From Streptomyces sp. SPB162 (lineage in GTDB: Bacteria > Actinomycetota > Actinomycetes > Streptomycetales > Streptomycetaceae), in contig NZ_JAQFII010000001.1 of assembly GCF_029504575.1 (NCBI RefSeq), positions 2,268,501-2,332,500 on the forward strand: a stretch of 64,000 nucleotides of DNA. Direction: 5' to 3'. The notes beneath the pieces are model-generated. The model saw only the letters and a list, made by a program, of their open reading frames with translations. It did no database searches and had not been told where the DNA came from. The position numbers and the translations under genes are program-made. Positions 8,143 to 44,192 of the stretch are shown one piece after another (within the stretch, counting starts at the first letter, position 1; each line of letters begins with the position of its first letter).

Positions 8143-8156
8143 TAGAACGTGTTCTA
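8143..8156. promoter_or_regulatory. KstR-type operator 1 (perfect consensus)
   Basis: TAGAACGTGTTCTA fits the KstR consensus TNNAACNNGTTNNA at every fixed position and is a perfect palindrome. It lies upstream of the MaoC-ADH-SDR operon and between that operon and the divergent ABC transporter. Confidence 0.75.
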
Positions 8157-8198
8157 GCAATGCTCATGTATAACGCATCGCCCCGAGCCTGTGAATAG

Positions 8199-8213
8199 CT
8201 GACGCACCATCAG
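8199..8213. promoter_or_regulatory. Palindrome CTGACG-CAC-CATCAG (motif 2, site A)
   Basis: This 15-base element matches CTGAYG-N3-CRTCAG and recurs at other promoters in the window (16543, 19547, 44178, weaker at 36038). It lies 43 bases from KstR-type operator 1, on the ABC-transporter side. The binding regulator is unknown. Confidence 0.5.
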
Positions 8214-8299
8214 ATCGCGCCACCCGTGACATTTGTCCCGGCCGACCCCGTACATTCACCTCTGCCGAGGTCAGGGCCGTTCTCCGTACCGTCGACGGC

Positions 8300-9292
8300 A
8301 TGACGACGACGATGCGAACCGAACCCGCGGTGCGGTTCTCGGGGGCGGTCAAGGCCTTCGGGAACGTCCGCGCCGTGGACGGGATGGACCTGGAGATCCA
8401 GCGGGGCGAGGCCGTGGCGCTGTTGGGCCGCAACGGGGCCGGGAAGTCCACCGCGATCGGCCTGCTGCTGGGGCTGGACACGCCGGACGCGGGCGAGGTG
8501 CGGCTCTTCGGGGGGCCGCCGGAGCGGGCCGTGCGCCAGGGCCGGGTCGGCGCGATGCTGCAGGACGGCCGGCCGGTGCCGCGCGTCACCGTGCGCGAAC
8601 TCGTCACGTTCGTGGCCAGGGCGTACCCCGCGCCGATGCCCGTGGACGAGGCCCTGGAGCTGGCCGGCCTCACCGCTCTCGCCCGCCGCCGGGTCGACCG
8701 GATCTCCGGCGGCCAGGCCCAGCGGGTGCGCTTCGCGGTGGCGCTGGCCGGGAACCCGGAGCTGCTGGTGCTCGACGAGCCGACCGCCGCACTCGACGTC
8801 GAGGCGCGGCGCGCCTTCTGGGACTCGATGCGCGGGTACGCCCGGCGCGGCAACACCGTGCTGTTCTCCACCCACTACCTGCAGGAGGCGGACGAGAACG
8901 CCGACCGGATCGTGGTCGTCGACCGGGGCCGGATCGCCGCCGACGGCAGCGGTGAGCGGATCAAGTCCGCGGCCGGCGGCAACCTGGTCAGCATCGACCT
9001 GGCCGGCGCCGGCTCCGCCGGCCTGCGGCTGCTCCCCGGCGTGACCGCCGTCGAGATCCGCGGCGACCGGGCGCGGCTGCGGACCAGCGACTCCGACGCC
9101 ACCGTGATGGCCCTCGCCGAGCGCGGCGCCGTCCGCGGGCTCGAAGTGACGGCGGCCAGCCTGGAGGACGCGTTCCTCGCCCTCACCGACACGCACGACT
9201 CCCCCACCGGCACACCCGACTCGGCCCCCACGCACGCACCCGAATCCCGCACCGACACGCGCGACTCGGCCCGTACCAAGGAGACGATCTGA
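8300..9292 (+). CDS. ABC exporter ATP-binding protein
   Basis: The 330-residue ATPase has Walker A GRNGAGKST at 43-51, signature SGGQAQR, Walker B LLVLDEPT and an H-loop STHYL, so it is an intact type-2 (DrrA-like) exporter ATPase. A 35-residue C-terminal tail of imperfect Asp-Ser/Thr-Pro repeats is unusual. ATG 8300 has no Shine-Dalgarno sequence; TACCGT (8287-8292) seven bases before it could be a -10 box, so a leaderless message is possible. The stop overlaps the next ATG by one base. Permease, kinase and regulator follow in one operon, the arrangement of DesK/R-type systems that sense membrane state and control a linked exporter. Substrate unknown. Confidence 0.9.
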   Translation: MTTTMRTEPAVRFSGAVKAFGNVRAVDGMDLEIQRGEAVALLGRNGAGKSTAIGLLLGLDTPDAGEVRLFGGPPERAVRQGRVGAMLQDGRPVPRVTVRELVTFVARAYPAPMPVDEALELAGLTALARRRVDRISGGQAQRVRFAVALAGNPELLVLDEPTAALDVEARRAFWDSMRGYARRGNTVLFSTHYLQEADENADRIVVVDRGRIAADGSGERIKSAAGGNLVSIDLAGAGSAGLRLLPGVTAVEIRGDRARLRTSDSDATVMALAERGAVRGLEVTAASLEDAFLALTDTHDSPTGTPDSAPTHAPESRTDTRDSARTKETI

Positions 9293-10026
9293 TGCCCGTC
9301 ATCGTGGAGTACGTCAAGTTCGAGGTGCGTCGCGCGCTGCGCGATCCCGGGTTCGTGATGTTCGGCGTCGGCATGCCGCTGGTGATGTACCTGCTCTTCA
9401 CCAACCTGGGCGTCAGCGGCGACGACAAGGACGACTACGCCGCCTACTCGATGATCGGCATGGCCGCGTACGGCGCGCTCGGTGCGGCGATCGGCACCGG
9501 GACCGGCGTCGCGGAGGACAAGGGTCTGGGCTGGCTGCGGCAGTTGCGGGTCACCCCGATGAGCCCGCTGCAGGTCGTGGTGGGCCGTGCCCTCACCGGC
9601 TCGGTGACCGTGCTCCCGGCGATCGGCGCGGTGCTGCTGGCCGGCGCGCTGATCAACGGGGTGAGCCTGGCGGCCTGGCAATGGGTCGCGGCGGCCGCGC
9701 TGCTGTGGCTCGGCACCATCCCCTTCACCCTGCTCGGCCTGGGCAACGGCTACGGCCTGACGGCGCAGACCACCGGACTGGCCAACACGGCCTGCATGAT
9801 CGCCCTCGCGGTGATCGGCGGCCTGTGGTTCCCGACCTCGCTCTTCCCCGGATGGCTGGCCGCGATCTCGCGCTGGACGCCCACGGCCCGCTTCGGCGAC
9901 CTCGGGTGGAGCGTCGTCGCCGGACACGCCCCGGGAGCCGGCACGGTGGCGGTGCTCGGCGGATGGCTGCTGCTCTTCGGCGGATACGCCGTCCTCTCTT
10001 ACCGCCGGGGGGCGCGTACCGCATGA
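9292..10026 (+). CDS. ABC-2 type exporter permease
   Basis: The 244-residue membrane protein has about six hydrophobic helices and the ABC-2 layout, with a short cytoplasmic N-terminus (VEYVKFEVRRALRDPGF) before the first helix. Lengths and order match DrrB-like permeases. It pairs with the ATPase immediately upstream, whose stop codon overlaps its ATG, so the two subunits are probably made together. The histidine kinase ATG in turn overlaps this stop. Substrate cannot be told from sequence; such permeases export lipids, drugs or peptides. Confidence 0.9.
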   Translation: MPVIVEYVKFEVRRALRDPGFVMFGVGMPLVMYLLFTNLGVSGDDKDDYAAYSMIGMAAYGALGAAIGTGTGVAEDKGLGWLRQLRVTPMSPLQVVVGRALTGSVTVLPAIGAVLLAGALINGVSLAAWQWVAAAALLWLGTIPFTLLGLGNGYGLTAQTTGLANTACMIALAVIGGLWFPTSLFPGWLAAISRWTPTARFGDLGWSVVAGHAPGAGTVAVLGGWLLLFGGYAVLSYRRGARTA

Positions 10027-11279
10027 TGTGGGCTGATCGTGGCACGGGCGGGACGACGGGGAGCGGAACGGGCATGGTCGACATGTGGGGGTTGCGGGCC
10101 TGGGGTCGGCGGGGCGGCTGCGGCGAGGGCGGGCCCCGGGACTTCGGCGAGGAGATCGACCGGATGAAGGGCCCGGACGGCGGGTCGCTCATCCCCTGGC
10201 TGCTGATGGCCAGCGGACCCGCCGTCGACGTGGCCAAGGACCAGGTGGCGCACCCCTGGCTGGCCGGCACCGGTCTCGCCGTCTTCTGCGTCCTGTACGT
10301 CTGCGCCGTCCGCTCCGGTTTCAGCGACCGCTACAAGGGCGGTCCGGTGCCGGTCCGGCTGCTGATCGCCCAGGCCGCCGTCACCTTGGCCCTCACCCTC
10401 GCCTACGGCGGCAACTGGCTGCTGCTCTTCCCGCTGCTGTCGCTGGCGTGCGGCGTCAGCGCCCGCGGCCGCCGGCTGGGCATGGTCCTGATCGGGCTCA
10501 GCGTCTCCAGCGGCGTGATCAGCGGGATGGTGCACCACGAGAGCTTCTGGAACACCGCGACCCTCTCCTACGGCACCTTCCTGTCCGGCCTGGTCGTCTC
10601 CGTGATCCTCACCCTCTTCGACGCCGTCCACATGCTCAAGGCCACCCGTCAGGAACTGGCGCGCAGCGCGGTGGCGGAGGAGCGGATGCGCTTCTCCCGC
10701 GATCTGCACGACCTGCTCGGCCACACGCTCTCCGTCATCGTGGTCAAGTCCGAGGCCGCCCGCCGGCTGGCGCCGCGCGACATGGACGCCGCGCTCACCC
10801 AGGTCGCCGACATCGAGGCGGTCGGCCGGCAGGCCCTCACCGAGATCCGCGAGGCCGTCACCGGCTACCGCGAGGGCAGCCTGGCCACCGAACTGGACCG
10901 GGCGCGCTCCGCGCTGTCCGCCTCCGACATCGAGGTCGTCGTCCGGGAGTCCGGGCCGCCGCTGCCCCCACAGGCCGAGGCGCTGCTGGGCTGGGTGGTC
11001 CGCGAGGGCGTCACCAACGTCGTACGGCACAGCGGCGCTTCCTCGTGCGAGATCGAACTGCGCTCCGCCGGCGGGAAGGCCCGCCTGACGATCACCGACA
11101 ACGGCTCCGGCGTAAACTCGGCGGCGGCCGCCACCACGGCGCACCGCATCGGCACCGGCCTCAAGGGCCTGTCGGAACGGCTCGCCGCGGCCGGCGGCTC
11201 CCTGGACTCGGGCCCGGCGCAGCGCCGCGGCTTCCAGGTGACCGCGGAACTGCCCGTCGAGGAGGAATACGCCGCATGA
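10023..11279 (+). CDS. DesK-type sensor histidine kinase
   Basis: The 418-residue protein has a short basic N-terminus, four to six membrane helices (about residues 55-195), then a HisKA_3 dimerisation helix with the phospho-accepting histidine in RFSRDLHDLLGHTLS and an ATPase domain with EGVTNVVRHS and DNGSG. This is the NarL/DesK class. ATG 10023 overlaps the permease stop as ATGATGA; a second ATG follows at once and another lies at 10074. Its partner is the response regulator whose ATG overlaps this stop. With only short loops between helices it probably senses a membrane condition and controls the adjacent exporter. Confidence 0.88.
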   Translation: MMWADRGTGGTTGSGTGMVDMWGLRAWGRRGGCGEGGPRDFGEEIDRMKGPDGGSLIPWLLMASGPAVDVAKDQVAHPWLAGTGLAVFCVLYVCAVRSGFSDRYKGGPVPVRLLIAQAAVTLALTLAYGGNWLLLFPLLSLACGVSARGRRLGMVLIGLSVSSGVISGMVHHESFWNTATLSYGTFLSGLVVSVILTLFDAVHMLKATRQELARSAVAEERMRFSRDLHDLLGHTLSVIVVKSEAARRLAPRDMDAALTQVADIEAVGRQALTEIREAVTGYREGSLATELDRARSALSASDIEVVVRESGPPLPPQAEALLGWVVREGVTNVVRHSGASSCEIELRSAGGKARLTITDNGSGVNSAAAATTAHRIGTGLKGLSERLAAAGGSLDSGPAQRRGFQVTAELPVEEEYAA

Positions 11280-43978: not shown

Positions 43979-44029
43979 GAATCTCGTCCTCTCCTCGACC
44001 GGTCGGCGTCCCGGCGCCTCCGGCAGAAC

Positions 44030-44043
44030 TAGAACGCGTACTA
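44030..44043. promoter_or_regulatory. KstR-type operator 5 (one mismatch)
   Basis: TAGAACGCGTACTA differs from TNNAACNNGTTNNA at one base and lies inside a 20-base near-palindrome AACTAG...CTAGTT (44027-44046), 50 bases upstream of the FadA5-like gene. Confidence 0.65.
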
Positions 44044-44148
44044 GTTCCGCCTGCAGTCTTATTACCCATGGAGCACAGCGCGCAAGACTCGTGCACGAGG
44101 CTCCATCGAGCCGCACGACATCCACACGGTCATTCCCCTTGCCACTTG

Positions 44149-44162
44149 TAGAACTGGTTACT
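44149..44162. promoter_or_regulatory. KstR-type operator 6 (one mismatch)
   Basis: TAGAACTGGTTACT fits TNNAACNNGTTNNA except for the last base. It lies 45 bases before the CYP125-like start codon. Confidence 0.6.
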
Positions 44163-44177
44163 ACCTTCGAGCCATAT

Positions 44178-44192
44178 CTGATGGACCGTCAG
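44178..44192. promoter_or_regulatory. Palindrome CTGATG-GAC-CGTCAG (motif 2, site D)
   Basis: Exact match to CTGAYG-N3-CRTCAG, extended by one base pair to TCTGATGGACCGTCAGA. It lies between KstR-type operator 6 and the P450 start. Confidence 0.6.

Follow-up and report, generated by a model that had tools for sequence, protein, structure and literature searches.

The stretch of DNA considered here (the window) comprises 64,000 nucleotides of the genome of Streptomyces sp. SPB162 (G000; contigs C1 and C2), which measures 7.2 Mb in 2 contigs and is an estimated 91% complete. It carries a gene for a TetR repressor of KstR type, an operon of methylmannose polysaccharide (MMP) type facing that gene, and dispersed groups of genes of predicted sterol side-chain catabolism, together with palindromic operators and operator-like sites (Table 1). 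The CYP125-type monooxygenase, the FadA5-type thiolase and the SCPx-type thiolase are predicted with wide margins, and the first two had been called correctly as CYP125-like and FadA5-like in an initial annotation of this DNA. The short-chain dehydrogenase/reductase (SDR) at 4933 we take to be Hsd4A-like, and the MaoC hydratase at 7143 is presumably Hsd4B-like.

Table 1. Positions in the window of the genes and sites discussed, with the evidence for each
Feature	Position	Strand	Evidence and remarks
SDR, PRK07792 type, Hsd4A-like 3-hydroxyacyl-CoA dehydrogenase	4933..5880	-	NF005862 479.5 bits, cut-off 414
Zinc alcohol dehydrogenase, nearest NDMA-dependent type	5968..7044	-	TIGR03989 295 bits, under cut-off 440
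MaoC 2-enoyl-CoA hydratase	7143..7997	-	Pfam MaoC_dehydratas and MFE-2 hydratase 2 N-terminal domain
Predicted operator TAGAACGTGTTCTA, palindrome, KstR-type	8143..8156	no strand	exact; before maoC
SCPx-type thiolase (lipid-transfer protein PRK08256)	13127..14395	-	NF006102 629 bits, cut-off 436; SCP2-thiolase type-1 E 2e-155
Double (fused) acyl-CoA dehydrogenase	14388..16514	-	Acyl-CoA_dh_N x2 and Acyl-CoA_dh_1 x2
Predicted operator TAGAACGTGTTCCA, KstR-type	16527..16540	no strand	exact; before acyl-CoA dehydrogenase; also in G019
MeT1-type 1-O-methyltransferase of MMP	16676..17323	+	PDB 6g7d E 3.8e-68
F420-dependent luciferase-like monooxygenase (LLM) oxidoreductase, Rv3520c family	19562..20593	+	TIGR03559 439 bits, cut-off 335
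MmpH-type MMP hydrolase	22812..23921	-	PDB 7qsj E 4.4e-115
S-adenosylmethionine (SAM) methyltransferase	23918..24661	-	Pfam Methyltransf_11; PDB matches generic only
ManT-type alpha-1,4-mannosyltransferase (GT4)	24655..25944	-	PDB 7qsg E 2.1e-135
Predicted operator TAGAACAAGTTTCA, KstR-type	26013..26026	no strand	exact; between manT and kstR
KstR-type TetR repressor	26155..26802	+	NF033703 196.5 bits (cut-off 280); later start ATG at 26179 possible
Single-cluster ferredoxin	34275..34508	-	Pfam Fer4_13
Aldehyde dehydrogenase (ALDH)	34508..36007	-	Pfam Aldedh; under TIGR04284 cut-off
Operator-like site	36056..36069	no strand	one mismatch; between ALDH and MBL hydrolase
Metallo-beta-lactamase (MBL)-fold hydrolase, Strvi_7410 family	36083..37126	+	NF053820 642.6 bits, cut-off 525
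Steroid 3-ketoacyl-CoA thiolase, FadA5 type	42809..43978	-	NF005889 704 bits, cut-off 515; PDB FadA5 E 1.1e-156
Predicted operator	44030..44043	no strand	one mismatch; between fadA5 and cyp125
Second operator-like site, weaker	44149..44162	no strand	one mismatch; G000 and G019 only, of 7 genomes
CYP125-type steroid monooxygenase	44195..45442	+	PDB CYP125 E 4.9e-159; next family CYP124 1.5e-84
ABM-domain protein behind cyp125	45485..45865	+	Pfam ABM; found also in G019, G029, G010

The comparisons draw on 35 genomes of the same genus, in 30 of which the kstR locus was available and among which G019 is a close relative of G000; on a gene-content table of six CYP125-bearing and six CYP125-less congeneric stretches around kstR; on 80 named loci around kstR (1.56 Mb in total), the best of at least 580 relatives; and on a survey of 297 genomes of the Streptomycetaceae, in which the first few candidates per genome were scored for CYP125, the KstR-type protein, IpdA, HsaC and a joined query of five ring-degradation proteins.

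The repressor matches the solved KstR at E 1.8e-40, with an identical segment GTLYRYFPSK, which we take to be the recognition helix, and the operator pattern TNNAACNNGTTNNA is present at its own promoter. The initial annotation had placed the gene at 26179; a gene of KstR type, preceded by an operator, does lie there, but its open reading frame is called from 26155 and its score remains under the equivalog cut-off. The window holds three exact matches to TNNAACNNGTTNNA, located as first annotated at 8143, 16527 and 26013, where 0.05 would be expected (mean of 100 shuffles, maximum 1). With up to one mismatch the count is 15 against 2.3 expected, and the three one-mismatch sites that had also been named (36056, 44030 and 44149) are therefore a selection from 12. 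All three exist and lie between called genes, those at 44030 and 36056 recur in relatives, and 44149 was seen in G000 and G019 alone among the seven genomes examined; of the nine others, seven fall within called genes and two outside (53409, 55517). Before maoC all 12 consensus letters are kept in G000 and in the 5/5 congeners whose stretch includes maoC, and between fadA5 and cyp125 11 of 12 are kept in G000 and all six CYP125-bearing congeners. The site at ALDH recurs in five of these six and fits 9 of the 12 letters, a score equalled or exceeded by 264 of 5,200 pieces of 380 bases taken at random from these stretches, true sites included (11 or 12 letters: 26 pieces); with some 5% of random pieces doing as well, it is weak taken alone. 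Across the 80 named loci the ALDH/MBL junction carries an exact site in 22, the ALDH gene being visible in 70. These loci together hold 116 exact sites, 114 of them outside called genes, and the reversed control pattern gives 0; in 13 of the 13 genus genomes searched, G000 included, the exact count likewise exceeds that of the reversed control (13:11 to 24:2). Palindromes of another form, TTGAACNNGTTCAA, stand outside called genes at G000:C1:466216, 3201083, 4786735 and 4786781, with similar ones in G019, and look like the operators of some other regulator.

The best conserved of these sites is the one between manT and kstR. An exact match lies between the two genes in 77 of the 80 named loci (not L110, L114 and L115), and 30/30 congeneric loci, CYP125 present or not, have one no more than 1.5 kb from kstR. 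The operon on the other side had been listed as a kstR/GT4 operon; it faces kstR and is of MMP type, not a sterol operon, its GT4 gene being of ManT type, while the production of MMP itself is a prediction. The methyltransferase at 23918 is likely MeT3 of this operon, judging by its position. The match of the gene at 16676 is to PDB 6g7d, which we take to be MeT1; it lies about 5.5 kb from the MMP operon and shares the site at 16527 with the acyl-CoA dehydrogenase. No site stands at MeT1 in the 12 other stretches compared, and MeT1 was rejected as a conserved KstR target. In mycobacteria, genes of these types make MMP, which has been proposed to sequester fatty-acyl-CoA, and an acetylated MMP is produced by S. 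griseus, where a ManT homologue also occurs, according to the available sections of the ManT paper, in which 7QSG is named (PMC9883506). The word "regulator" is absent from that text, and in the open-licence literature no paper was found that combines "methylmannose polysaccharide" with "KstR", or "KstR" with "Streptomyces" and "mannosyltransferase". What this analysis adds is the conserved MMP link, together with the missing A/B-ring module discussed below; the former would supply a candidate regulator of MMP, for which a role in holding acyl-CoA has been proposed.

Comparison with congeners ties the catabolic groups to one another. The genes for the LLM oxidoreductase, ALDH, ferredoxin, MBL hydrolase, FadA5 and CYP125 are present in 6/6 CYP125-bearing and 0/6 CYP125-less stretches; hsd4A, the alcohol dehydrogenase gene and maoC are found in five of the former (not G017) and in none of the latter, apart from a 33% SDR match in G031. 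For these last three, the flanking genes of both sides are present in four of the six CYP125-less stretches (G024, G027, G030 and G031), and the left flank of this position is different sequence in G003, G028 and G017. In five single-contig CYP125-less congeners, the kstR region (60 kb) is in part collinear with that of the window but lacks the catabolic groups, with the kstR/manT site as the sole operator-like site outside called genes, and many neighbouring genes remain in the CYP125-less stretches. Because the catabolic groups are jointly absent from these stretches, the dispersed, site-bearing groups look like one unit.

The initial annotation had proposed dispersed side-chain genes bearing the operator; this is supported, but members outside the window had been missed. 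In G000 an operator also precedes an operon of echA19, an OB-fold gene, ltp4 and ltp3, in which the enoyl-CoA hydratase scores above the PRK07799 cut-off (373 bits with the EchA19 model, cut-off 400), the OB-fold protein is ChsH2-like, and the two lipid-transfer thiolases belong to the PRK07937 and PRK08313 types. A fadD gene, complete in its G019 reading, faces this operon. Operators further precede two acyl-CoA dehydrogenase (FadE) genes, at 970 kb and 4,036 kb, and a pair of one-mismatch sites lies before a glucose-methanol-choline (GMC) oxidoreductase related to cholesterol oxidase. The echA19 operon, fadD, FadE and GMC members all recur with sites in G019. Elsewhere in G000, at C2:22565-26763 and C1:957.8-958.7 kb, genes that are whole in G019 look cut or are read in two frames; sequencing error or decay would account for this and fits the completeness of 91%.

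Taken together, these findings make it probable, at roughly 75%, that a KstR-type repressor, a dispersed sterol side-chain gene set and the repressor's own gene with the divergent MMP operon are joined under one predicted operator, and within this proposal the KstR-type repressor with its dispersed sterol side-chain regulon is well supported as a prediction from sequence. The repressor would bind a TAGAACNNGTTCTA-like operator before the side-chain genes and the operator shared by its own gene and the MMP operon. KstR is released by the CoA thioester of a side-chain intermediate, and here too such a thioester would release the repressor. CYP125 would then oxidise the end of the side chain, FadD would form the CoA ester, and the chain would be shortened by FadE, EchA19/MaoC, Hsd4A and FadA5/Ltp enzymes, while MMP, rising simultaneously, would hold the bulky CoA esters. 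For the nucleus that remains, no known A/B-ring enzyme was found in the genome, yet C/D-ring genes (ipdAB) are present at another locus, apparently under another regulator; the middle steps would therefore be carried out by unrecognised enzymes or elsewhere.

Several points weigh against this reading. The 80 named loci are the most similar of at least 580 and hence no random sample. The repressor misses the NCBIfam equivalog cut-off for KstR (196.5 against 280 bits), which is still its best family by far (next 47 bits), and it is therefore called KstR-type and not assigned to the equivalog. The loose pattern is hardly enriched across the genome: 24 exact sites stand against 13 for the reversed control, one mismatch to the stricter TAGAACNNGTTNNA gives 57/58 against 73/85 in the control and is not enriched, and the loose motif was dropped as a genome-wide classifier. 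Among the 24 exact sites, 18 of which were examined, six lie before regulon-type genes, eight within called genes, and four are TTGAAC..GTTCAA palindromes elsewhere. The LLM gene shares the presence pattern of CYP125 but no site was found at it, and the pair of fused dehydrogenase and SCPx genes occupies this place in only G000 and G019 of the seven CYP125-bearing genomes. The GMC enzyme reaches 103.5 bits where the cholesterol-oxidase cut-off is 850. A mce cluster at G000:C1:4120819-4131900, with six MlaD-domain proteins, is without a KstR-type site over the 28 kb that were scanned, and the link from KstR to a mce importer that was sought at this one mce cluster was not seen. Finally, the whole-genome search of CYP125-less congeners covered CYP125 alone, and the other genes might therefore lie elsewhere in those genomes.

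The repressor itself differs between congeners with and without CYP125. Against 25 named relatives drawn at random as a reference, the ligand domain of KstR averages 86.2% identity in 10 CYP125-bearing genomes of the genus and 69.2% in 20 CYP125-less ones; for the DNA-binding part the mean values are 90.5% and 86.3%, and for ManT, with 12 relatives as a reference, 83.4% and 82.0%. In a rank test both parts of KstR differ significantly and ManT does not (p 0.077). The ligand domain has diverged in 18 of the 20 CYP125-less congeners, with the operator retained, and is undiverged in G003 and G014. We read this as a probable release from, or change of, ligand after the loss of the sterol genes, the MMP operator being kept. 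This result, from 30 of the 35 genus genomes, is confounded by phylogeny: it is not independent of descent, since a single loss may underlie most of the CYP125-less genomes. Genomes with a kept operator and an altered ligand domain constitute a natural test of sensor reuse. Across the family, a KstR-type protein occurs in 275 of 297 genomes, and no CYP125 genome is among the 20 listed of the 22 that lack it.

The question of ring degradation, which had been left at the absence of such genes from the window, was pursued beyond it, and the answer is divided. KshA has no match in G000 at 1e-3, and HsaC none at 1e-40 (7 of 16 candidates scored); a joined query gave no HsaC match at 1e-10 either. 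That query comprised HsaC, KstD, HsaA, IpdA and IpdB from another family member (locus L196), names that were first assigned on our own assumption; HsaA lies above its NCBIfam cut-off, HsaC and KstD have the respective families as best match yet remain under cut-off, and IpdA and IpdB match no NCBIfam model. Neither KstD nor HsaA has a match in G000 at 1e-10, with 13 of 42 candidates scored; IpdA (77%) and IpdB (72%, in two frames) were matched at C2:25135-26763, and nothing else. The G000 IpdA matches the alpha subunit of a solved CoA-transferase, 6co6, at 2e-101, which we take to be IpdA. C/D genes are present, but the KstR sites envisaged at ksh, hsa and mce homologues did not materialise: the searches yielded neither KshA nor HsaC, and no site was seen at the one mce cluster. 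The ipd locus of G000 also has two FadE genes, a TetR gene without an NCBIfam match at 1e-40, and genes that are presumably EchA20-, IpdC- and FadA6-like; it contains no exact KstR-type site. The KstR2 motif, for which we assumed the mycobacterial consensus, was not found at ipd loci and matches once in 3.44 Mb of loci overall. Upstream of echA20, 5 of 12 genomes examined, though not G000, have another palindrome, ACCAAACGTTTGTT.

The two modules nevertheless travel together. Within the genus, IpdA/IpdB (60-80% identity) occur in exactly the 10 of 35 genomes with CYP125. Within the family, CYP125 is found in 136 of 297 genomes at 1e-100, or 135 once G208 (46% identity) is excluded; all 135 carry IpdA, which occurs in 137 genomes and without CYP125 in two (G045 and G296). 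The 135 spread over ten genera, and as family genomes are related these counts are not independent events. Matches to KshA_C occur in 64 family genomes, seven at 1e-88 or better and 57 at 5e-26 or weaker; HsaC at 1e-40 occurs in 19, namely the same seven (47-100% identity) and 12 others (36-47%). A close KshA is thus missing from 130 of the 135 CYP125 genomes; a weak KshA_C match is present in 24 of these 130 and an HsaC-like protein in 11 (both in five), and 100 have neither; among the 162 CYP125-less genomes, close KshA excluded, 33 have a weak KshA_C match and one an HsaC-like protein. In four family stretches, L195-L198 (G088, G167, G292 and G230), a compact kshA/hsa cluster is seen with an IclR-like gene (by eye), accompanied in three of the four by ipd-like genes; no exact KstR-type site occurs in these stretches.

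Full sterol degradation by a partly unknown route, in which the A/B rings are attacked by enzymes unrelated or distantly related to KshA, KstD, HsaA and HsaC, has in our estimate a little less than an even chance. Side-chain and C/D modules at separate loci co-occur in 135/135 genomes, 130 of them without a close KshA, and the excess of HsaC-like proteins (36-47% identity; 11/130 against 1/162) may reflect a ring module that has diverged in certain lineages, G000 not included; yet no ring oxygenase was seen in the ipd locus or next to those operators of G000 and G019 that were examined (18 of the 24 exact G000 sites and few one-mismatch ones), and the 100 genomes that show no weak KshA and no HsaC-like match speak the other way. 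It seems unlikely that the two modules instead serve two foods, the side chain being clipped with release of the nucleus and the methylhexahydroindanedione propionate (HIP) or C/D leftovers of other degraders being finished: the lack of a close A/B module in G000, the ipd locus with its own TetR gene and without an exact KstR site, and the growth of a streptomycete on HIP reported in 1977, as cited in the available part of PMC5380842, would all suit it, but it does not alone explain co-occurrence in 135/135. Quite improbable is a secosteroid or other sterol-tailed hydrindane substrate without intact A/B rings, for example of vitamin D type, which would require exactly the side-chain and C/D modules found, whereas the cholesterol-oxidase-related GMC gene with its operator-like sites points to ordinary 3-hydroxysterols. 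That the sites are chance palindromes amid ordinary fatty-acid metabolism, as the weakness of the loose pattern across the genome might suggest, is hardly credible beside the positional conservation, the joint absence and the identities of CYP125 and FadA5.

More broadly, a published survey classed 55 of 57 Streptomyces genomes as without steroid catabolism, as far as its available sections go (PMC4810484), in contrast to the 135 of 297 family genomes with CYP125 and ipdA found here, 130 of them without a close KshA. Either there is an A/B-ring route so far unknown, or a widespread soil family uses sterols in part, releasing or taking up steroid pieces. A wider proposal, tentative and as a whole rather doubtful, is that KstR of the Streptomycetaceae is at root the switch of the MMP operon, which gained sterol side-chain genes as further members and also lost them, and that nearly half of the sampled family genomes degrade sterols through a novel A/B step joining known modules.

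The remainder of the window has other features. Beside kstR, 27521-34109 encodes a RamC-type protein with a LanC-like part, two ABC transporter genes and a 37-residue open reading frame (31331-31444), and looks like a ram/SapB-type lanthipeptide cluster, the SapB name being our assumption. The gene at 62490-63794 codes for an SrpI-like encapsulin shell protein of type 2A that has a cNMP-binding domain, and a match to the Rfam antisense RNA Sernc350 (62421-62923, minus strand) overlaps it. The 4.6 kb or so from 51449 to 56057 contain no gene by codon-based calling and no RNA family match.

Known systems resemble this one in part. CYP125A13 of Streptomyces peucetius, likewise a streptomycete CYP125, hydroxylates cholesterol; the accessible portion of that paper holds no mention of KstR and no regulon (PMC9728343). 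S. avermitilis, too, possesses a CYP125 (PMC12429392). The actinobacterial 9,10-seco pathway shares the side-chain enzymes, ipdAB and the EchA20-, IpdC- and FadA6-like neighbours, and differs in KshA and HsaC, which were not found here, and in KstD and HsaA, which were not found with the five-part query. From the mycobacterial MMP cluster (MeT1, MmpH, MeT3, ManT), ManT, MmpH and MeT1 are matched by sequence; here, however, a KstR-type gene faces the operon across an intervening site, and MeT1 is some 5.5 kb off. The KstR regulon of mycobacteria and rhodococci, whose gene content served for this comparison, has in common with the present one a TetR repressor, the type of operator and a site at the repressor's own gene, cyp125 and fadA5 adjacent and divergent, echA19-, ltp3-, ltp4- and hsd4-type genes, and operators at cyp125, fadA5 and the hsd4-type genes. 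In Streptomyces sp. SPB162, by contrast, kshA and hsa were not found, no site was seen at the mce cluster, the genes are scattered over at least four loci, and the most conserved target seen is the MMP operon.

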